From positions 62,001 through 126,000 of the forward strand of contig PAAG01000047.1 in the NCBI GenBank assembly GCA_002698785.1: a stretch of DNA of 64,000 nt, given 5' to 3'. Shown one piece after another: positions 48,422-58,515 of this stretch. The DNA is from Verrucomicrobiales bacterium (lineage in GTDB: Bacteria > Verrucomicrobiota > Verrucomicrobiia > Verrucomicrobiales > DEV007). A program made the position numbers and the translations under genes. The notes beneath the pieces were generated by a model that searched no databases, was not told the origin of the DNA, and worked only from the letters and a program-made list of their open reading frames with translations. Numbering within the stretch: the stretch's first letter is position 1; every line of letters starts with the position of its first letter.

Positions 48422-48436
48422 TCGGCCAACCGCCTC

Positions 48437-48514
48437 GCGTCGTAGTGACCATCGGTCATAGCGATCTGCTACGACCCGTAGTGACGCTGCCAGTCAAGTG
48501 GCGCTCCGTTTGAC
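48437..48514 (+). repeat. 78-bp IS66 terminal sequence, left copy
   Basis: It matches the reverse complement of 51022-51099 at 70 of 78 positions with no gaps (counted by eye). It contains an internal dyad, GTCGTAG (48439-48445) and CTACGAC (48469-48475), and starts 16 bp after the transposase stop. Confidence 0.82.
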
Positions 48515-48726
48515 GCATACGAAGAATCGGCAGTGCGAAAGAGCATTTCTAAGGATAAACCCAAAATCACTCAATCCTGCTTCTCAGAAATATTCACAAA
48601 AAATAGCCTGTTATATAAACGGCTTGGCTTCGAGATGTACCCTGGCGAATACGACTCTTAACGTCTATGATTGCCTGCTTGAACCAACGCAAAAAAACAG
48701 ATGAGATCTCTCCGTCTCAATTCTAT

Positions 48727-50010
48727 TCACTTCCACCGAGACCACGGTGGATTGAGGTTCAATTCCGACCGAAGCTTCTTGACGGTATCCGCGTAGGCCT
48801 CAGTCAACCATTGCTCTGTTTCCTTCTTTAGTGGAGGCACGATATAGGATACCGAGTTGGCTGAGCTTGTTTTGATTCTTTCCTGCCGGATTTCCAGGAA
48901 ATCCTGAATTCGATTCAGCTCTTTGTCGGGGTTGCTTTTGAGATCTTCGGTAAAGCAATAGTGGATTGCATCGTCTGAATATAGAGAGCGAAGCATTTTG
49001 ATCTGTTCGAAGTAAAGGCCACAACTGAATAGTCCAGGGAAGCAGTCCTTTTTCAGGGTGTCGATGTCTCCACGCAAATTGTCCTCGAAGGTTCCCTCTG
49101 GAAAGGGTAAACGAAACCGAGCTTGCTCATCGGGAGGGAGTAAATTCCAAAAGTTCCAATGGCTGTATGACCTTATAACCGGGTCGCGCATTACGATAAT
49201 AAATCGGGCATTGTGAATATGTTTCCGAATTCGGTTTAGGATATGGCGATTACTCAGATAAATCGGTGTAGCGTCCAGGTTGATGGAACGACGATCTTTG
49301 AATTGGTTGGAATACCAATCCAGGCCCTCTGCGTAACGTCGTGTGAAAAATCGAACTTCTTTGCACGATGTTCCGTCGTCTTCTACCGCTCCTGAAATCT
49401 GTGAATGCTGGACTAGCATTTCGTGCAAGGCCGTGGTGCCACACTTTGGAAAACCAGGAATGAACAATCTTGGAAGATTTCTCCATTTTCTTCCGTCGCG
49501 GCGAGCAGCCCAGATCTCCAATTGAATGACTGCCTCTCCGAGACTTAGCTCAACCACTGGGTTTCTACTTCCCAGACGGGACGAGGAGAATGCACTTCGT
49601 TTCCCGAAAAAGACCAAAGCTTCCCCGATACTGGCTCGGTAGACTGTTTCGGATTGCCCAGAGATGCCATCAATGATCTTTTGTTGAAATTCGCCTGAGA
49701 GCCAGTCTTGGTTTCGGAGAACGATAACAATTAGTTCTTTCGCACATGCAGTGGGCAATACGCGTGATAGATAAGAGTCAAAATCAGACACGTGACTGTC
49801 AGTCTCCACAAATGCAATCAAGACCTTCTCCTTAAGTGCATCCTTTCCGGACGTTCGCTGAGGATTCCTCCAGACAGATAAAATTTCCCGTAGGAAATCA
49901 CTCAGCCGACGTGACAAGACTGCCTTTTCATTTGAGATCAGTGAATCATCACTCACGTCAAGAAAACGCAACGGAGAACCTCGCCTAAGCACACATTGTC
50001 CTTCTATCAT
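48727..50010 (-). CDS. sulfotransferase with a ~180-residue N-terminal extension
   Basis: 427 aa. The sulfotransferase domain begins near residue 180: PAPS loop FIPGFPKCGTTALHEMLVQH, ATPIYLSNRHILNRI, and the 3'-phosphate motif IVMRDPVIRSYSHW. The N-terminal ~180 residues (including KVLIAFVETDSHVSDFDSYLSRV) form a separate alpha/beta domain that I cannot name. It is cytoplasmic, transferring sulfate from PAPS to a glycan or other acceptor. It lies 132 bp downstream of the pyruvyl transferase gene; both are enclosed by the IS66 ends. Confidence 0.85.
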   Translation of the reverse strand: MIEGQCVLRRGSPLRFLDVSDDSLISNEKAVLSRRLSDFLREILSVWRNPQRTSGKDALKEKVLIAFVETDSHVSDFDSYLSRVLPTACAKELIVIVLRNQDWLSGEFQQKIIDGISGQSETVYRASIGEALVFFGKRSAFSSSRLGSRNPVVELSLGEAVIQLEIWAARRDGRKWRNLPRLFIPGFPKCGTTALHEMLVQHSQISGAVEDDGTSCKEVRFFTRRYAEGLDWYSNQFKDRRSINLDATPIYLSNRHILNRIRKHIHNARFIIVMRDPVIRSYSHWNFWNLLPPDEQARFRLPFPEGTFEDNLRGDIDTLKKDCFPGLFSCGLYFEQIKMLRSLYSDDAIHYCFTEDLKSNPDKELNRIQDFLEIRQERIKTSSANSVSYIVPPLKKETEQWLTEAYADTVKKLRSELNLNPPWSRWK

Positions 50011-50142
50011 TTGCTGCTAAACCTAATACGGTCTCTCAATTCTTGGCGACTATCGTGATCGACACTTCATTCGAAGCATACTGCCGACGACCCAAAAAAT
50101 TATAGCTTCCTTCTTCCAAAGGCCCACGAACGAGCCCTCATT

Positions 50143-50934
50143 TCAGCCATCTTTCTCGGCTTCTTTTCGAAGTCGCTCAAACCGGCGGTAAAACGAATCG
50201 TTCCTACGTCGGCACTCCTGTAGGAAGTTCACGGACGGTGTCGCGCCTTGGACTTGGTCCTCAGAGTTCACGATCTTAGCTCCCGGCAGGCACCTGAACT
50301 TTGTGGAGAATGCGTTCGCAATGTAGACTTCTTTTCCAAGAAGGAGACCCCAGTACGCACCGTGGTAGCTTGAAGTAACGAGCTTCCGGCAACCTCCGAT
50401 CCACTCGATCACCTCCTCGAAGGTGTGACGCTTGAGCGTATTGATAAACCGTGGTTGGTTCGGAAATAGATCGATACCATATTGCATGTGTTCGTAGACT
50501 CTTACTTCCTCCTGGATTTCGTAGTCGCGGTCGAACACTTCATGTTTGCAGCTTACGCACGGAACAATATGAGACTCCGCCGCAGGCAAAGAGTCGGGTC
50601 GGGCATCGAAGTTACGAATTCCAAGCAGGTCGAACTTGGACACAAGGTCCGATCTATGTGGCTTATGGAGATCGGTGGTATGCTCGTTGAACCCAAGTCC
50701 CCACCCCACGAGTTTGTTGTTTCCTTTATGCATCTTGAGAAAGTAGTCAAAAAAGCACAATACTCCACCGCCTCCCACCAGGATGATAGAGTCCTTGATG
50801 TCGGAAGGCTTCGTGGTGAGCAGATTGAACTTATGCGCGTAAGGAATGGGGTAGTAGTCGAGCGGGCTCACCACCGAGTCCCCGGTATTGGGGGTACTGA
50901 TGGCAAACAGGTTAAAGACAATTCTCGTGACCAT
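50143..50934 (-). CDS. polysaccharide pyruvyl transferase family protein
   Basis: 263 aa. Motifs are NTGDSVVSPLDYYP near the N-terminus (N-x-G-D), ILVGGGGVLCFFD, WGLGFNEH, FDLLGIRNFDAR and CRKLVTSSYHGAYWGLLLGKEVYIAN, the family's S-x-H-G-x-x-x-G motif. It is compact for the family. First gene of a two-gene unit with the sulfotransferase. Confidence 0.83.
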   Translation of the reverse strand: MVTRIVFNLFAISTPNTGDSVVSPLDYYPIPYAHKFNLLTTKPSDIKDSIILVGGGGVLCFFDYFLKMHKGNNKLVGWGLGFNEHTTDLHKPHRSDLVSKFDLLGIRNFDARPDSLPAAESHIVPCVSCKHEVFDRDYEIQEEVRVYEHMQYGIDLFPNQPRFINTLKRHTFEEVIEWIGGCRKLVTSSYHGAYWGLLLGKEVYIANAFSTKFRCLPGAKIVNSEDQVQGATPSVNFLQECRRRNDSFYRRFERLRKEAEKDG

Positions 50935-51021
50935 TATCTATCATTTGCAAATACGGCTCCATTGGCAAGCCCCTCCAGTGCTATGGTCAACTAGCGGTGG
51001 ATTTGATGCTTGGGTTGTATG

Positions 51022-51099
51022 GTCAAACGGAGCGCCACTTGACCGGCAGGGTCACTATGAGTCGTAGGAGATTGCTATGACCGGCGGTCACTACGACGC
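51022..51099 (-). repeat. 78-bp IS66 terminal sequence, right inverted copy
   Basis: Inverted copy of 48437-48514 (70 of 78 positions identical). Similarity stops at the outer end where the transposase stop codon would begin, so only the non-coding terminus remains. Confidence 0.82.
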
Positions 51100-51694
51100 G
51101 ACCGGCTTTCTGACATTCTGAGGGTCCTGGAACTGACGTTTTCTAAAATGATGGGGTTTTCGTTTTCTCATCATTTTCCACATAACATGTTGATTACAAG
51201 AGTTTTGAAATGCTTTCAGAGCTATCATTTCCGGTTTTTTCCTCTTTTTTGGCTAGTCGGGGTGGAATATACGGGATTACCTGCAACGGAGTTTCGCGTG
51301 GGCAGAATTCCAGAAAATACTCGCCTCCAACATCGACTCCATTCTAGCAAAATGCGTTTGAAATGTCGAGTTTATAGCTGTATTGTTAGTATCGTCGCGC
51401 ACTGTGGCTGGCTGGTGGCGTCCGAGAAAAAAAGCCACTAATTTCATAAACGCCTTGAACAGTTTCCAGGGTTCCTTCATCTTCGTCCTGACATCGTGTG
51501 AAAGGTCGCATCACTATCCAACCGAATTGGGTCGGAACCAAGGAAATCGAATTGGAGGGATGACGTTTTGATTCCGTTTTTGAGGGCGACTGATCGAAGA
51601 TGGGTTCAACCGCCGAGAAGCTTTTCGGATTTTGATTTTTTTATACGGTTGGCGTGGACATTTTTCTAAACCTAGATTGCAATTCGCGGGTCCG
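51100..51694. other. 595-bp stretch without a supportable gene
   Basis: T-rich in places (51150-51260). Two weak frames (51148-51441 plus, 51277-51480 minus) overlap each other and show no family motif. It may be a decayed insertion following the IS66 end. Confidence 0.45.
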
Positions 51695-51934
51695 TTATTC
51701 CCGAAAAATCCAGCCCCCTTTTCCTTCCTTTTTAAACTGCCGATAGCAAAGGAAATAGTAGAAGACAGGAGCTATCCAAAATGTGAAAACTAGCAAGCAA
51801 AACCATCCCGCACGTGCGCGCGGATCTTCAATGCGCTGCATAGCATGGACAGAGAAAAACAGCCAAGTGAGAAACAATATTAGCGAAATGACAAACTTCA
51901 AAAACAATCCACCCCACCCTTGCAACAAGTCCAT
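51695..51934 (-). CDS. small membrane protein coupled to the Rhs gene, candidate immunity protein
   Basis: 79 aa from the ATG at 51934, whose A is the last base of the Rhs stop (TGATG). Two membrane segments, LFLKFVISLILFLTWLFFSVHA and WFCLLVFTFWIAPVFYYFLCY, around a short RIEDPRARAG loop; the C-terminus is basic. Small downstream membrane proteins are common partners of toxin genes, and the Rhs tail here is hydrophobic, so an immunity role is plausible but unproven. The second segment also recalls PLDc_N-type membrane modules. Confidence 0.65.
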   Translation of the reverse strand: MDLLQGWGGLFLKFVISLILFLTWLFFSVHAMQRIEDPRARAGWFCLLVFTFWIAPVFYYFLCYRQFKKEGKGGWIFRE

Positions 51935-54900
51935 CACGCGGCCCCTCCTCCCCCTCCACGACGGTTGCACGCATACTCATCGTCGCAATACTTCCGAGTC
52001 GCTTCTGCTGCGGTATCGGAGATCACTTGCGTGGCCCATAAAGTGACTACAGCGTCTGCGATCGCGCCTACCGCGCCAACTAAGCCAGCAATTTTCGTAG
52101 GAGTTGTAGGTATGAAGCCGACTATTGCTAACCCAATATCCACCGCATATCTAATGACGTTGGGAGCTATCATATCAATAGTGAAGTTAATCTTCATTCT
52201 TCGCATATTATATAAGCATATATCATACTCCTCGTGTTTTCCTGACTTATAGTGTTCCACTTTCATTCCTGGAAAATCCCTTAGGGCGGTTTGTATGGCA
52301 TCCTCTACTGCACCAAGAATTGGTATCCAATCTAAATACCATCCAAATAAATCGCGGTTTGAACACGGGTTGTTGCCACAATACATCAACAAATTCAGCC
52401 CTCCATTTTCTTCAATTGGGTCTCTACCCAACCATCTCCCAATTTCGGATTCATAATACCGAAATCCATAATTCACGAGCATAGTTTCTAAATCCAAGAA
52501 CTCTCCATGGAACGCATAAGTCCAGTCGTAATTGGTGCCTGAGCGGTCGCTAAAGTCGGCGGCCATCACCGTCCGTTTGCCAAATGCGGAGTAGCCGTAG
52601 CGCTCTTGAACCGCACCCGATGTATCCAATACTGCAGCGCCGGAACTCATTGCATCCCGTGTCGCATAGAGCCTTTCGTCCAAAGTTCCGTTTCCGGTCG
52701 TGTCGCGGTCTCGTAGGACCAAATTGTTCCGGTTGTCAGCCCCCCACACGTACTGCCGTTCTGCATCCGTTTCTGTGTCCAGCCGCTCTTCTACGGCTTT
52801 CCATTGATCGTTGTAGTAATAGTGACGAACCTGCGTCGGTAACGTCTCCACCGACAACCTTCGGTATTGTCCGTCATAATCGATCGGTCCCACCAAGGTC
52901 ACCTGATCCCCTTCCCAGATTTGAATCTCGGTGATCCGGTTCCACGCATCCCATTTCAACTGCTTGTAATTGCCCGCAGTCCAATCTCCTTCCGCATCCG
53001 GCGGCATTTCGGTCGCGTTTCCGTTCAAGTCGTACTCGACATCCTCACTCGATCCGTCGAACTGCGTGATCTGGTTATCCATGTTGTTCACTCGGGTTTG
53101 GTCCAGCGTCACGGTTCCATCTTCAGCCTCGGTATATCTGAGCCAGTTGCCGGTAGGATCGTAGGAGAAGGTCTCCTCGGAACCTGGCACTCCTCCCACT
53201 GCGGTCCGGTTGATGTTCAGGTCTCCTCGTGTTGCCTGTGTCACCTGATATAAACCATCGTAACGGTAGGCACTATCCTGACCATCCCCGGGCGACGCCG
53301 CCAGGTTCGAACGCCAAGTCCGCATCGAACTCCGGTCATAACCATATTGGAACCGGTCCCGCACCGCTCCTCCGCTAGTCGTCGCCCAGCGCATGTCCAC
53401 CACCCGCCCGAAGCGGTCGTAGCCGTTGTACTGGTCGCCCGCATCGCCTGCTGCGGCACTCGCTGTCTTGATATACGACAATGCCACTCCCGGTTCCGGA
53501 CTCGTCACCTTCACCACGGTGCCCGTCCCCAAATAATCATACTCCGCCGCGTTGTCGCTTTCTCCGTTGATCTTGATTGTTGCCACACGACTCATCAGGT
53601 TGTCCGCACTGCTCGTACTACCGTATCCGTAATCGACCACCCGACCGTCTGGATAGGTCATCGAGGTCCGCCGGATTGTGTTGCCACTGCTTCCATTTTC
53701 GTAAGCATACGACACTTCCGGCGTGCTGCCACTCACCGCGCCGCTATGCGACTGCTTGTCCGCCGCCAACTGCCCGAAGTCGTCGTATTCGTAGGCCACT
53801 TCGTTGACCACGGTTCCGCTACCCACTGTCGCATTGTCGTAGGAGGTAATTTTGCTTTTCTGCCCCCGGTCATCATACTCGGTCGTTATGCGTAGCACGG
53901 CATTGTCGATTCCACTGGCAAGTGTTGTCACCCGATCCTGTGTTTGACGACCGAACTTGTCGTAGTCGTACTCGTGCACTGTGCCGTTGGGATCCGTCAT
54001 CGCAGTCGTCGCTGATTGACGATTGTAACTGTACTCGATCCGTTCGTAAAGATCATCCGCCCCGTCTCCCAACGGATCGTAGTCGTCGTCGCTCTCCGGA
54101 TAGATCTTCGCCCGGAGCAGGTCGTTGCGCGCCACTTTCGAGTCGTCCAAGGTCGTGCCATAGATCCACCTGGTTACCTGGTCACCCGTCACTTCGTTCA
54201 CCAGCGTCAGGGTTTGCAATTGATCGTCGAGCGTGTAGCGGTAGGCCATCGTCCGGTTGGCTCCGTAGTCGCTCGACGGCTTCGATGGATCGTAGTTCTC
54301 GATCAGAACAATGCGGCGCCCGAGGGCATCCTTTGTCCAGCGGGTTTCGATGCCCATCGGGTCGATCGAAGCGTCGGCTTCGTATTCGGTCACGTAACGG
54401 TAGCTCGTAACCAATACCGTATCCGAACGGTCCGGAACCGCTGCTGGCCTCGTCAAGTCCGCTCCTCCGTTGGTTCCATAGTTGGCACTGGCCACCTGCC
54501 GGCTCACCCCGTCGAACCAGTTCGCTGTGTAATAGCGACGCGCCTTGGGCTGCGAACCATTTGGTCCGTTCAGGGCTCCGTTACCCGTCGCATCGTGGAA
54601 GCGCTGGTAGCGGGTTTCGAGTTCCAACCACCCGAGCGGATTGTAGCTCTTTTCCCACTGCTCGACCACCACGTCTCCGGACGGGTCGTTGTCGTCAGTG
54701 GAAGTGCCTGCGTTGCAGCACAGATAGTTCTCGATGGGACGGTTCATCCCGTCATAGACTGTTTTCGAAAACGCTTCGCTGCCCTGGTTGAGTTGCTTGA
54801 TCACGTTGCCGTTGACATCGCGCCAGCTCTCGCTGCGGATCGCATTGCCCACCGTGCCATTCGAGGCCACTCCGTATCGCTCGCTCTTGTAGATACGCCC

Positions 54901-57900
54901 CAGATTGTCCCAGTAATCCTTGGTTCGGCCCCGCAGGTTTCCGGCGGCGACGCTGGTGTGGTAAAAGTCGGTCTGGGTAATGTAGCCGAAATTGTTGTAG
55001 GTGTAGGCCGTGATCAAGTCCTGCGCGGTGGACACGGCATCTTTCCTGGTCGTCTGCACCAAGAGTGTCCGATAATCGTAGGCGTATTCGGTTATTTGGT
55101 CGTTGGCGGAGGTGTCGTCCACCGGCCTCGTCTCGCTGGTCAGCAACCCGTTTCCGTTGAAGTCTCCGTTATCGTAGTCCATCAACAAGGTCATGCGCAT
55201 GTTGTTGCCCGCCGCTTGTCCGGAGGTTCCACCATCCGGTTCGGCATTGGTCGCATCGATGTCGTCCGTGCCCACCCAACGTTCGATCGCCAGGCCTCGT
55301 GTGTCGTAGACAGTTCGCGTAATTGTTCCGACAGGGCTGACCATCCGCACGATCCGTCCCATCTCGTTGTATTCATACTTTGTTTCCCCGTAGTGCTCGC
55401 CCTTTTCTCCTTCGCCGAATAGGGGGATGTTGTGGTATACGCGCTTCACCAGTAGCCGACCCCAGTCGTCGTAGACGTTCTGCGTCCACGATTCCCAGGT
55501 CTTCTGCGGGAACTTCTCGGTAGCACGCAGAGTCCCGCAGGTGCATTCCCGGTTCGCACGGATCTTTTCGGTCACCTTTCCGTTCTTGTCGTAGCGGGTG
55601 ATGGTCACTTCACCCACGGTTTCGTATCCATAGGCCGGGGCGTTGCCGGTCGCGTATCCGGTTGCGGTCCATACTTCGTCGAGGTCGGGGCGGTAGAGGG
55701 TCAATTTCACAGTACGAACGTTCACGGCCTCGGTGTCCTCTTCATGCAACACGGCCTGGTGCCAAGGGCCATACTGGATCAGGGGTTTGCCCACCGCATC
55801 GCTCACGATGTCGGTCACGAGGTTCTGCCCGCCTCCCGCCGGGGTTGTCCACCCATCCGGCACGTTTTCCACTTTCGTCGTGTCGACATCATCGATTCGC
55901 TGCATGAGCACTCCGTCGGGACGGTACTGCCAGTTGGTGATATACCCGCGGGCATCCTTCTTCCAAATGAGGTTCCCGTTGACGTCCATGATGGAGGTAA
56001 TTTCGTGCTCCAGCCCGTCTCCGTTCTGGCTTGTTGGCACCACTGGCATTTTCTGCACTATCTGGTAGACCTGCAGGGTGTCGTTGCCGTCAGCGTCCTG
56101 GTAGTAGGTGTACTCGGTTTCCAGGGTGGGAGGACTGCTCATCCCCGCCTCCGGATACCGGATGCGTTGCCAAAGAGGAAAGATACTCGCTCCGTTCACT
56201 GTCTCGGTATTCCAGGTGACCTGGTCGAGCAGGTCGGGTGTCCCTCCACTCCCTTCCTGGGCCGACCAGCCCGCGGGACGGCCCGCGACGGCACCGGTGG
56301 TCGGGTTGTCGGTGTCGTAGTAGTCGAAGGTGTAGATTAATCCGGCGTCAGTGTTGTAGTTCACGGTCAGGGTCGTGCTGCCCCCGGACGGTTCGGTCAC
56401 GCTGTTGACTGCGGTCGGGTAGGCGTGCTGGGAGTTCCAACCGTAGTCGTTGAACTCCATCGCATCGTAGGTCTTGTTGCCCTGCGGATCTTCGTAGATC
56501 GACACCAGCACCCCTCCGCTCGGATTGGTGTAGACACGGCGTTCGCTCCCGTCGGGATTGGTCGTCGTGGTCTGCACGGCCCAGTCGTTGTTGTCCCCGG
56601 TGGTCGGGTTGTCCGGGTTGTCGGTGTAACTGTACTGGATGGTTTCGGTTCCGCCACGGAACTTCTGCAGGGTCACCCTCCGGGTTTTTGCTCCATCCGC
56701 GACATCCGAATACTCGAAGTAATAGTCCGCATATTGGGCGAGAACGGTGTCGCTGGCGGTTTCCGGGTCGATGCCTGCTTTGCGGATCGTGCTGCAAGCC
56801 TGGCCTCGCAGGGCATACTTCAACCCGTGGGCAAAACCCGTCGAACTCTCTTCGGTGTAGTACCGGTAAAAGTTTTCGTGTGCAAACGCCCACTCGCCCC
56901 CCGCCGCCTGGCTTGCTTGCGAAAGATCCGTGTTTTCGTTGAAGTCCAACCACCCCCAAACCCGCGCACTCTTGAGGTCGTTGTCGCTGCCCTTGCCGTC
57001 TTCGTCGGTGTAGTAGGTGTATTCCACCTTTCGGAAGTTCACCCCGTTGTGTTTGTAGGTCACGCTCTTGAGCATTCCCAGGTGATCAAGGGTGTCGTAA
57101 TATTCGTAGATAAACAGGTCGTTCTGGTTCTCACCGTTAAGAGAGTCCCACCACTGGAAGTTTACTCGCTCCAATTCATCATTGACATCGTACTGCAGAT
57201 TGATTGTGCTGCCATAACTTGATGTCAGGCCCTTGAGCTTACCTCGAAGGTCGGCGGGATGGCTTACCGAGTTGTCGTAGTAGATCCACTGCTCGCCCGA
57301 TTCCAATGTGATCACAAACGTGTCGCTCACGTGCTCCAGTTGTCCGTAAAAGGCTGTCAGGGGAGCATAGTCCCCGGTCGACTGGTTTTTCTCAAAAAAC
57401 CAGGACTGGTTCGCCAGTCCCCGCCGGATAATACGGTCGGGATCGTTCACCCCGGCTGCCGCTCCCTGGAAATCAAGGTAACCAAGCTCTTTGTTCAACC
57501 AGCGGTTCCCGTTGATCTGACCGGTGTCCGATCCTTCGATGTTCGCGTAACTTCGCGTTTGCCCCCAAGGAAAAAGTTGGCCCGGATCGTAGCCCGCAGA
57601 GTCGCCCGCCGGTGAACTCACGCTAGAATTCCGGGTCAAGTCGCGCTCAATCATATAGATCTGACCGATCCCGTCCCGCACCAGGGCTGTTTCGCCCCCG
57701 ATGGAGTTCATGTTCGTCACCTGTGCCGGACGGTTCGGTGCCTGGTCCCGCAAATCTCCGAATGGCTGGGTTCCTCCCGGTGTCCACGGCACCCCCGTGG
57801 CATTGTTTTGTGCAGCCGGATTTTCTTCTTCTGGCGGGCCTGAACTCGCAGGAGGACTGGAAATCTGAGCGCAAGACGAATCAGGATCTGTATAATCACA

Positions 57901-58161
57901 TGGGTCAAAAACGCACCAATTTCCTCCACCAGCTCCCTCAGGATCGCACGGATCACCATCCTGACAAAATATACTGGGATCCGTCATGTCGCACGTATCG
58001 CACGTATCAGTCGGACTTCCGTAGCGAGGACCAACCCGGCCTCCGTTGGTGTCGGCGTTGCCCCAGGGATTGTAGGGCGATTCAGAGGAGGGCGCAGAGC
58101 TAGGCATGGAAATTTGGGTGTTAACTGTTGGGCTTTGGGAGATTGATTCCCGTCCTCGCAT
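51934..58161 (-). CDS. Rhs/YD-repeat protein with distinct C-terminal tail
   Basis: 2,075 aa from the ATG at 58161; a GTG two codons upstream is also open. Residues ~55-110 hold a Cys/Asp cluster (CDTCDMTDPSIFCQDGDPCD...). Many YD repeats follow (YDKFGRQTQDR, YDYRTLLVQTT, YDGLYQVTQATRGD), ending with the conserved Rhs core end: AFHGEFLDLETMLVNYGFRY, WLGRDPIEENGG, NLLMYCGNNP. The last ~134 residues are variable and hydrophobic (IRYAVDIGLAIVGFIPTTP..., AIADAVVTLWATQVI) with a GGGGG end. Rhs shells encase a C-terminal toxin; this tail matches no enzyme I know. No signal peptide or export motif is seen. Confidence 0.9.
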   Translation of the reverse strand: MRGRESISQSPTVNTQISMPSSAPSSESPYNPWGNADTNGGRVGPRYGSPTDTCDTCDMTDPSIFCQDGDPCDPEGAGGGNWCVFDPCDYTDPDSSCAQISSPPASSGPPEEENPAAQNNATGVPWTPGGTQPFGDLRDQAPNRPAQVTNMNSIGGETALVRDGIGQIYMIERDLTRNSSVSSPAGDSAGYDPGQLFPWGQTRSYANIEGSDTGQINGNRWLNKELGYLDFQGAAAGVNDPDRIIRRGLANQSWFFEKNQSTGDYAPLTAFYGQLEHVSDTFVITLESGEQWIYYDNSVSHPADLRGKLKGLTSSYGSTINLQYDVNDELERVNFQWWDSLNGENQNDLFIYEYYDTLDHLGMLKSVTYKHNGVNFRKVEYTYYTDEDGKGSDNDLKSARVWGWLDFNENTDLSQASQAAGGEWAFAHENFYRYYTEESSTGFAHGLKYALRGQACSTIRKAGIDPETASDTVLAQYADYYFEYSDVADGAKTRRVTLQKFRGGTETIQYSYTDNPDNPTTGDNNDWAVQTTTTNPDGSERRVYTNPSGGVLVSIYEDPQGNKTYDAMEFNDYGWNSQHAYPTAVNSVTEPSGGSTTLTVNYNTDAGLIYTFDYYDTDNPTTGAVAGRPAGWSAQEGSGGTPDLLDQVTWNTETVNGASIFPLWQRIRYPEAGMSSPPTLETEYTYYQDADGNDTLQVYQIVQKMPVVPTSQNGDGLEHEITSIMDVNGNLIWKKDARGYITNWQYRPDGVLMQRIDDVDTTKVENVPDGWTTPAGGGQNLVTDIVSDAVGKPLIQYGPWHQAVLHEEDTEAVNVRTVKLTLYRPDLDEVWTATGYATGNAPAYGYETVGEVTITRYDKNGKVTEKIRANRECTCGTLRATEKFPQKTWESWTQNVYDDWGRLLVKRVYHNIPLFGEGEKGEHYGETKYEYNEMGRIVRMVSPVGTITRTVYDTRGLAIERWVGTDDIDATNAEPDGGTSGQAAGNNMRMTLLMDYDNGDFNGNGLLTSETRPVDDTSANDQITEYAYDYRTLLVQTTRKDAVSTAQDLITAYTYNNFGYITQTDFYHTSVAAGNLRGRTKDYWDNLGRIYKSERYGVASNGTVGNAIRSESWRDVNGNVIKQLNQGSEAFSKTVYDGMNRPIENYLCCNAGTSTDDNDPSGDVVVEQWEKSYNPLGWLELETRYQRFHDATGNGALNGPNGSQPKARRYYTANWFDGVSRQVASANYGTNGGADLTRPAAVPDRSDTVLVTSYRYVTEYEADASIDPMGIETRWTKDALGRRIVLIENYDPSKPSSDYGANRTMAYRYTLDDQLQTLTLVNEVTGDQVTRWIYGTTLDDSKVARNDLLRAKIYPESDDDYDPLGDGADDLYERIEYSYNRQSATTAMTDPNGTVHEYDYDKFGRQTQDRVTTLASGIDNAVLRITTEYDDRGQKSKITSYDNATVGSGTVVNEVAYEYDDFGQLAADKQSHSGAVSGSTPEVSYAYENGSSGNTIRRTSMTYPDGRVVDYGYGSTSSADNLMSRVATIKINGESDNAAEYDYLGTGTVVKVTSPEPGVALSYIKTASAAAGDAGDQYNGYDRFGRVVDMRWATTSGGAVRDRFQYGYDRSSMRTWRSNLAASPGDGQDSAYRYDGLYQVTQATRGDLNINRTAVGGVPGSEETFSYDPTGNWLRYTEAEDGTVTLDQTRVNNMDNQITQFDGSSEDVEYDLNGNATEMPPDAEGDWTAGNYKQLKWDAWNRITEIQIWEGDQVTLVGPIDYDGQYRRLSVETLPTQVRHYYYNDQWKAVEERLDTETDAERQYVWGADNRNNLVLRDRDTTGNGTLDERLYATRDAMSSGAAVLDTSGAVQERYGYSAFGKRTVMAADFSDRSGTNYDWTYAFHGEFLDLETMLVNYGFRYYESEIGRWLGRDPIEENGGLNLLMYCGNNPCSNRDLFGWYLDWIPILGAVEDAIQTALRDFPGMKVEHYKSGKHEEYDICLYNMRRMKINFTIDMIAPNVIRYAVDIGLAIVGFIPTTPTKIAGLVGAVGAIADAVVTLWATQVISDTAAEATRKYCDDEYACNRRGGGGGAA

Positions 58162-58515
58162 GAGCACTGGAATCAGTGAATCTGTTTGTTATATATGTAT
58201 AATTCAGAAGATTGCTAGGCACATCAAATCTGAATAGGTGCCAACATTGGCACTCCTCTCCGTTCAACGTCAATGCTTTTTAAAATAAATATTTTCACTT
58301 GCTTGCCATGAGGTGATTTCCTATGCTGAGATAGGTAGGGTGTATTTCCAAATACACTCCTGACATCATTACTATTTACACCAATTGCGTATTATGTATT
58401 CTTACTGGATCGCCGTTCATTCTCCCTGGACCCAAAAGCGCAGGCTCCGCCCTGTTACCCACTGCCGCGGCGGTTGCTAGCGGCTTCCGTTTCATCGTAG
58501 TCCGATACCTGCTGA
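58162..58515. promoter_or_regulatory. divergent intergenic region between Rhs and DUF1360 genes
   Basis: 354 bp with no gene. It holds an AT-rich part (58180-58200, TTGTTATATATGTATAAT) close to the Rhs start that could be its promoter, and an 18-bp palindrome at 58340-58357 placed between the two divergent starts. Confidence 0.45.
58340..58357. promoter_or_regulatory. 18-bp palindrome, candidate operator
   Basis: GTGTATTT and AAATACAC form a perfect 8-bp inverted repeat around CC. It lies ~180 bp from the Rhs start and ~160 bp from the DUF1360 start. The size suits a dimeric regulator. Confidence 0.4.

Follow-up and report, generated by a model that had tools for sequence, protein, structure and literature searches.

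The 64,000-nucleotide stretch analyzed here (the window) is part of contig PAAG01000047.1 of a Verrucomicrobiales bacterium (GenBank assembly GCA_002698785.1) and encodes, on its reverse strand, a large Rhs (YD-repeat) protein whose stop codon overlaps the start of a small gene for a two-helix membrane protein. Overall, we favor, with a rough probability of 0.57, the interpretation of this arrangement as a polymorphic Rhs toxin locus that would combine a membrane-depolarizing tail with a two-helix hairpin immunity protein. Judged from solved Rhs effectors, the tail would be cut free near residue 1943 by a pair of Asp residues in the Rhs core. The released tail would then insert its hydrophobic two-helix hairpin into the membrane of a competitor and depolarize it, and the 79-residue protein, whose translation is coupled to the Rhs stop, would sit in the inner membrane of the producer and block the tail, together with which its gene was probably acquired. 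The locus would add one more case to a weapon type already known, with a tail for which no relative was found. It represents a compact candidate toxin/immunity pair and raises the question of how such proteins exit the cell. The swappable toxin scaffold is present in Verrucomicrobiota and Planctomycetota, and the chief item in the literature found that joins these phyla with Rhs proteins is a general catalogue of polymorphic toxins.

The Rhs shell and its C-terminal tail

51934..58107, reverse strand: Rhs (YD-repeat) protein, 2057 residues from the most likely start at ATG 58107, assigned from the open frame and family matches
51934..58167, reverse strand: the same frame from the alternative start GTG 58167, 2077 residues
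52342..52593, reverse strand: Rhs-associated core (TIGR03696) including D1916 and D1939, a putative autoprotease Asp pair at a spacing of 23 residues
51937..52341, reverse strand: variable C-terminal tail of 135 residues (1943-2077), a predicted exchangeable effector module
52036..52158, reverse strand: hydrophobic stretches 2004-2022 and 2026-2044 of the tail, a closely spaced pair joined by a turn that contains Pro

The Rhs assignment is based on matches to RHS_repeat (30.9 bits; Pfam cut-off, 22) and to the core family TIGR03696 (62.5 bits; cut-off, 32.5). Residue numbers refer throughout to the 2077-residue frame, but translation most likely begins at ATG 58107, because Met21 of the window protein aligns with the start of its nearest shell relative found. 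This relative, L029 (JAJRVS010000126.1, Verrucomicrobia bacterium isolate Dive96_bin10.62), shares 68% identity in the best segment, the core. It carries, after the core, a metallopeptidase-like motif (HEVGHTLGLQH, in two pieces separated by a stop), and the closest shell found therefore bears a different type of effector. The Rhs gene of L029 (6758-12629) is split into several frames, reflecting decay or assembly errors.

An alignment of eight shell regions yielded 78 loci (from the best 80 of 120 confirmed candidates), mostly from Verrucomicrobiota and Planctomycetota judging by their record titles. The corresponding profile matched 27 distinct PDB sequences at an E value of ≤0.001, and the window protein alone matched six at ≤0.01. 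The profile matches comprise Rhs proteins of solved structure, Tse5 (8cp6), teneurin-like proteins, and the C subunits found in insecticidal toxin complexes. Together with loci collected earlier, the 78 loci provided a set of 88 tails, from which four loci fetched twice and frames running off the contig or ending before the end of the core were omitted; without two other Rhs proteins of the window's own genome that the profile had reached (L010 and L011), 86 tails in 67 loci remain. The second Asp of the putative cleavage pair is kept in 83 of these 86 members, among which it follows the first at a spacing of 23 residues in 45 and of 24 in 10 cases, with no first Asp recognized by pattern in 22.

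In the window protein, the core ends with DLFG, and the tail begins directly after it. Identity to the window protein across the eight shells (itself counted) falls from 0.47 in residues 1901-1950 to 0.19 in residues 1951-2000, i.e., conservation drops at about residue 1950, and the G+C content at third codon positions (GC3) is 0.434 in the tail versus 0.695 in the shell. The same break is seen throughout the family, with a tail below its own shell in 85 of 86 cases for GC3 and in 81 of 86 for total G+C content. Among the 88 tails, 82 had no relative within the set (E < 1e-3), the window tail included, and the other six formed three pairs. Pfam recognized 13 families in the 86 tails at an E value of ≤0.01, none of them in more than two members; convincing ones are Ntox16, Ntox44, PLA2 (phospholipase A2), and DUF4329, HNH and JAB are weak, and several others look like chance. 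Taken together, the drop in conservation, the GC3 break, the unrelated sibling tails, and the matches to known toxins mark the window tail as an exchangeable effector module and not as a part of the conserved shell. An earlier note on this DNA had named a tail conserved as part of the shell in all homologues as one finding that would contradict its toxin reading; instead, some shell relatives bear recognizable toxins.

The same note had described a hydrophobic tail of about 134 residues. Its length is corrected to 135, and its hydrophobic character stood, since the tail holds both of the protein's only peaks of at least 1.2 (19-residue Kyte-Doolittle mean), with a maximum of 1.90 versus at most 0.71 in 121 shell segments of equal length. 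A hydropathy of at least 1.9 is reached by nine of the 86 tails, that of the window included.

Further Rhs genes and partial copies were observed alongside these shells. In the window's genome, L010 (2930-9193; contig 23) encodes another Rhs protein without full-length similarity to the window shell, of which only the core matches the profile; its N-terminus resembles a signal peptide, and its stop is overlapped by a small gene. L011 (contig 47) contains a 4912-residue Rhs frame and, directly behind it, a shorter one of 617 residues, which resembles the C-terminal part of the former with a different tail and has the appearance of a tail cassette that was displaced. In L026, L035, L036, L044, L075, and L053, incomplete frames with shell and tail also lie close to longer Rhs genes; L053 has four partial cassettes behind a frame-broken gene, and the final one runs off the locus.

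The small downstream gene and known toxin/immunity pairs

51695..51934, reverse strand: two-helix small membrane protein of 79 residues, candidate immunity protein, whose start codon and the Rhs stop have one base in common (TGATG)
51942..51957, reverse strand: GGAGGGGGAGGAGGGG, translated in the Rhs frame into a terminal Gly run and probably serving the small gene as its ribosome-binding site

The one shared base confirms the overlap of a downstream two-helix gene with the Rhs stop that had been noticed before. The Gly run at the end of the tail, noted at the same time, is real as well, but it is the translation of GGAGGGGGAGGAGGGG, the probable ribosome-binding site of the next gene, and was for this reason rejected as a functional feature of the tail. 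Counted by eye, the last GGAGG of this element lies 9 nucleotides ahead of ATG 51934, where the small gene is taken to start; a 91-residue reading from GTG 51970 is less likely. The predicted structure, computed on the 91-residue reading, consists of two long helices (mean predicted local distance difference test [pLDDT] score, 77.4). With a G+C content of 0.438, the gene is close to the tail (0.471). It is probably a real gene, and its family is not tied to the window Rhs shell. Matches (E ≤ 0.01) were found in 26 of 384 genomes of the class, the window's own included, the best non-self relative being L107 (39% identity over 63 residues; E value, 3.9e-10). A 248-residue protein weakly similar to the small protein (E value, 0.012) is encoded in the window's genome (L009, 1384-2130), ahead of a frame whose HExxH motif resembles that of metallopeptidases.

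A small gene at this place is a common feature of the shell family. Among the 82 cases that could be used, 47 have an ATG-started open reading frame of at least 70 codons that begins between about -4 and +56 relative to the stop, versus a mean of 5.24 and a maximum of 13 in 50 shuffles. Downstream proteins were extracted in 81 cases, and 78 were scanned, three of at most 56 residues being left out. Among the families listed (25 of 48), leucine-rich, tetratricopeptide, HEAT, and ankyrin repeats occur in one to four members each, besides plain host or mobile genes, e.g., FUR, NifU, and IS66 transposase. Open reading frames of at least 45 codons start within 60 nucleotides of 73 tails, and in 14 of these cases the next protein has at least two hydrophobic segments. 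Such multihelix partners follow eight of 24 tails with a hydropathy of at least 1.2, compared with six of 49 other tails, which is no more than suggestive of a coupling between hydrophobic tails and membrane-type partners. The loci L038 and L044 have homologous tails, each followed by a small two-helix protein, and these partners are hardly alike (z score, 2.1); behind the other two pairs of related tails, the partners are unrelated.

Among known systems, Tse5/Tsi5 of Pseudomonas aeruginosa combines, like the window locus, an Rhs shell with a membrane-type C-terminal fragment, which at about 16 kDa is similar in size to the window tail. Tse5-CT is described as an Rhs pore former and Tsi5 as having two predicted transmembrane regions (PMC9637101), which compares with the two-helix partner in the window, and the cleavage pair reported for Tse5, D1141/D1164 (PMC10684867), has the same spacing of 23 residues. 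In contrast to Tse5, the window protein has a Cys-rich N-terminus, lacks a PAAR-like N-terminus and VgrG, and is encoded in a genome without a VipB match, and its tail has no detectable relation to PDB chains. The immunity proteins (CdiI) of CdiA ionophores, reported as two-helix hairpins of 72 to 100 residues (PMC11630599), resemble the small hydrophobic partner in the window, and the C-terminal domain of these CdiA proteins acts on membranes according to that source, as the window tail would; however, the window shell is of the Rhs type, VENN is absent from the protein, and the five-helix bundle of the CdiA ionophores is not seen in the (unreliable) model of the window tail. A catalogue of polymorphic toxins describes a two-helix pore toxin (Tox-WTIP) and a two-transmembrane immunity family (Imm17) (PMC3482391), i.e., two membrane helices on either side, as predicted for the window pair, but Wx[ST]IP is absent from the Rhs protein, RxxR from the tail, and WxW from the small protein. 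By analogy with these pairs, the tail may act on membranes, and the small protein may be its immunity protein.

Counterevidence and rival explanations

Several results weigh against a membrane-acting tail with a hairpin immunity protein. No homologue of the window tail was found in any collection searched. Besides the window itself, 384 genomes of the class (E ≤ 0.01) gave a single match (E value, 0.009), located in a frame of 85 codons; a collection of 84,980 species, each represented by one genome, gave 38 pattern matches, none of which was confirmed; and 387 genomes of the phylum (E ≤ 0.1) gave weak matches in 17 further genomes. Nine of these weak places were taken as loci and had no Rhs shell, one of them reading as a multi-pass membrane protein. 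Plasmids, PDB, and PHROGs, searched with the tail, and PADLOC, searched with the tail within the whole Rhs protein, gave nothing, and the best family match in Pfam or NCBIfam had an E value of 0.1, with none at 0.01. The single-sequence model of the tail, with one helix, three strands, and two long helices, is unreliable (mean pLDDT score, 50.5). Shuffled tails reach a hydropathy of 1.90 in 514 of 5000 cases and two segments at 1.4 in 345 of 5000, and the tail is therefore hydrophobic by composition and not by a striking clustering. With respect to the putative cleavage, the residue following the DxxG of the core is Trp in the window protein versus Leu in 72 of the 86 family members.

The counterevidence also concerns the partner and the genome. 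The coupling of hydrophobic tails with multihelix partners is weak, with one-sided P values, uncorrected for the four thresholds, of 0.036 (threshold 1.2), 0.056 (1.3), 0.032 (1.5), and 0.046 (1.7) when the window pair is counted and of 0.064, 0.101, 0.069, and 0.103, respectively, when it is not. None of the three pairs of related tails is followed by clearly related downstream genes (z scores, 0.7, 2.1, and 0.0). The 26 non-self loci of the small-protein family, taken with about 1.5 kb on each side where the contig allows (ten of them also read on the plus strand), do not contain the window Rhs shell in a single case. The earlier concern that the small gene might not be linked to Rhs genes elsewhere thus holds in part, although a small gene does follow 47 of the 82 shells. 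Finally, neither VipB nor a PF04984 phage-sheath match was found in the window's genome, which is 95.9% complete; other parts of type VI secretion systems (T6SS) or injectors were not searched.

A rather unlikely alternative is that the locus is a polymorphic Rhs toxin whose tail acts in the cytoplasm, with an enzyme or inhibitor in its strand part, so that the hairpin would be an entry element only and the small protein would block uptake. The low-confidence model does place three strands before the hydrophobic helices, and among the sibling tails several have matches to families named as enzymes (phospholipase A2, HNH, and JAB), whereas the window tail has no family match in Pfam or NCBIfam at an E value of 0.01. 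Prevention of uptake has been proposed for immunity proteins with two transmembrane regions in the catalogue mentioned above (PMC3482391).

We regard it as improbable that the small gene encodes an ordinary PLDc_N-like host membrane protein that is merely located downstream, with the immunity function elsewhere or absent. PLDc_N-like proteins share the two-helix layout and a weak profile match with the small protein, but the match (16.9 bits) lies below the curated Pfam cut-off of 23.3, and there is also a weak similarity to DUF805, with matches to other families likewise weak and sub-threshold; a literature search on PLDc_N and immunity found no title on a bacterial immunity protein. The occurrence of matches in 26 of 384 genomes and the 26 non-self loci without such a shell are in line with a host protein. 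The single base shared with the Rhs stop, the position of the ribosome-binding site within the Rhs coding sequence, the low G+C content common to gene and tail, and the frequency of a following small gene across the shell family argue against it.

The tail is very improbably a mere anchor that fixes the Rhs shell to the membrane of the producer itself for adhesion or surface display, as the hydrophobic hairpin and the YD-repeat proteins reported among the predicted outer-membrane proteins of Akkermansia (PMC4960237) might suggest, given that only the nine of 86 tails mentioned above are equally hydrophobic and that some tails are toxins by family.

The N-terminus and export

57871..58002, reverse strand: Cys-rich N-terminal cluster with seven Cys (residues 56-99)

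The Rhs protein had been described as lacking PAAR, VgrG, and a signal peptide, with a Cys-rich N-terminus ahead of the YD repeats, and all of this was borne out. PAAR and VgrG are absent from its Pfam matches, and no signal-peptide-like stretch was found near either start, the maximum 15-residue hydropathy mean within the first 160 residues being 0.16. Upstream of GTG 58167, just seven further in-frame codons precede a stop; therefore, the frame leaves no room for a signal peptide further upstream. The protein thus differs from Sec-exported Rhs proteins of the WapA type, and the missing VipB and sheath matches together with the missing signal peptide leave it without a known export route. A search of 10 N-termini, including that of the window protein, for the planctomycete export motif gave only a sub-threshold match in L063 (14.3 versus 25.5 bits).

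The N-terminus of L029 is similar to that of the window protein and has Cys in the corresponding region, L065 and L071 have seven Cys within the first 150 residues, and many of the 40 long relative frames listed have a cluster of Cys or a run of Ser ahead of the shell. It would be conceivable, but we consider it doubtful, that these proteins form a family of the Planctomycetes-Verrucomicrobia-Chlamydiae superphylum that is exported without a Sec signal, PAAR, T6SS, or phage-like injector by means of a short Cys- or Ser-rich N-terminus as an export or docking element, here with a hitherto unseen two-helix pore-forming tail and hairpin immunity. The lack of a signal peptide fails as a family-wide rule, as L092, one of the 40 frames listed, clearly carries a stretch resembling a signal peptide; the N-termini of the remaining 39 were assessed by eye and hydropathy only. 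Long Ser runs, possibly surface linkers, are found at the N-termini of the shell relatives L040, L047, L050, L054, and L079.

Outside the Rhs locus, the window contains an 80-nucleotide inverted repeat of 90% identity (48435-48514 and 51022-51101) that flanks a sulfotransferase gene and a polysaccharide pyruvyl transferase-like gene. This unit (48435-51101) adjoins a transposase-like region.

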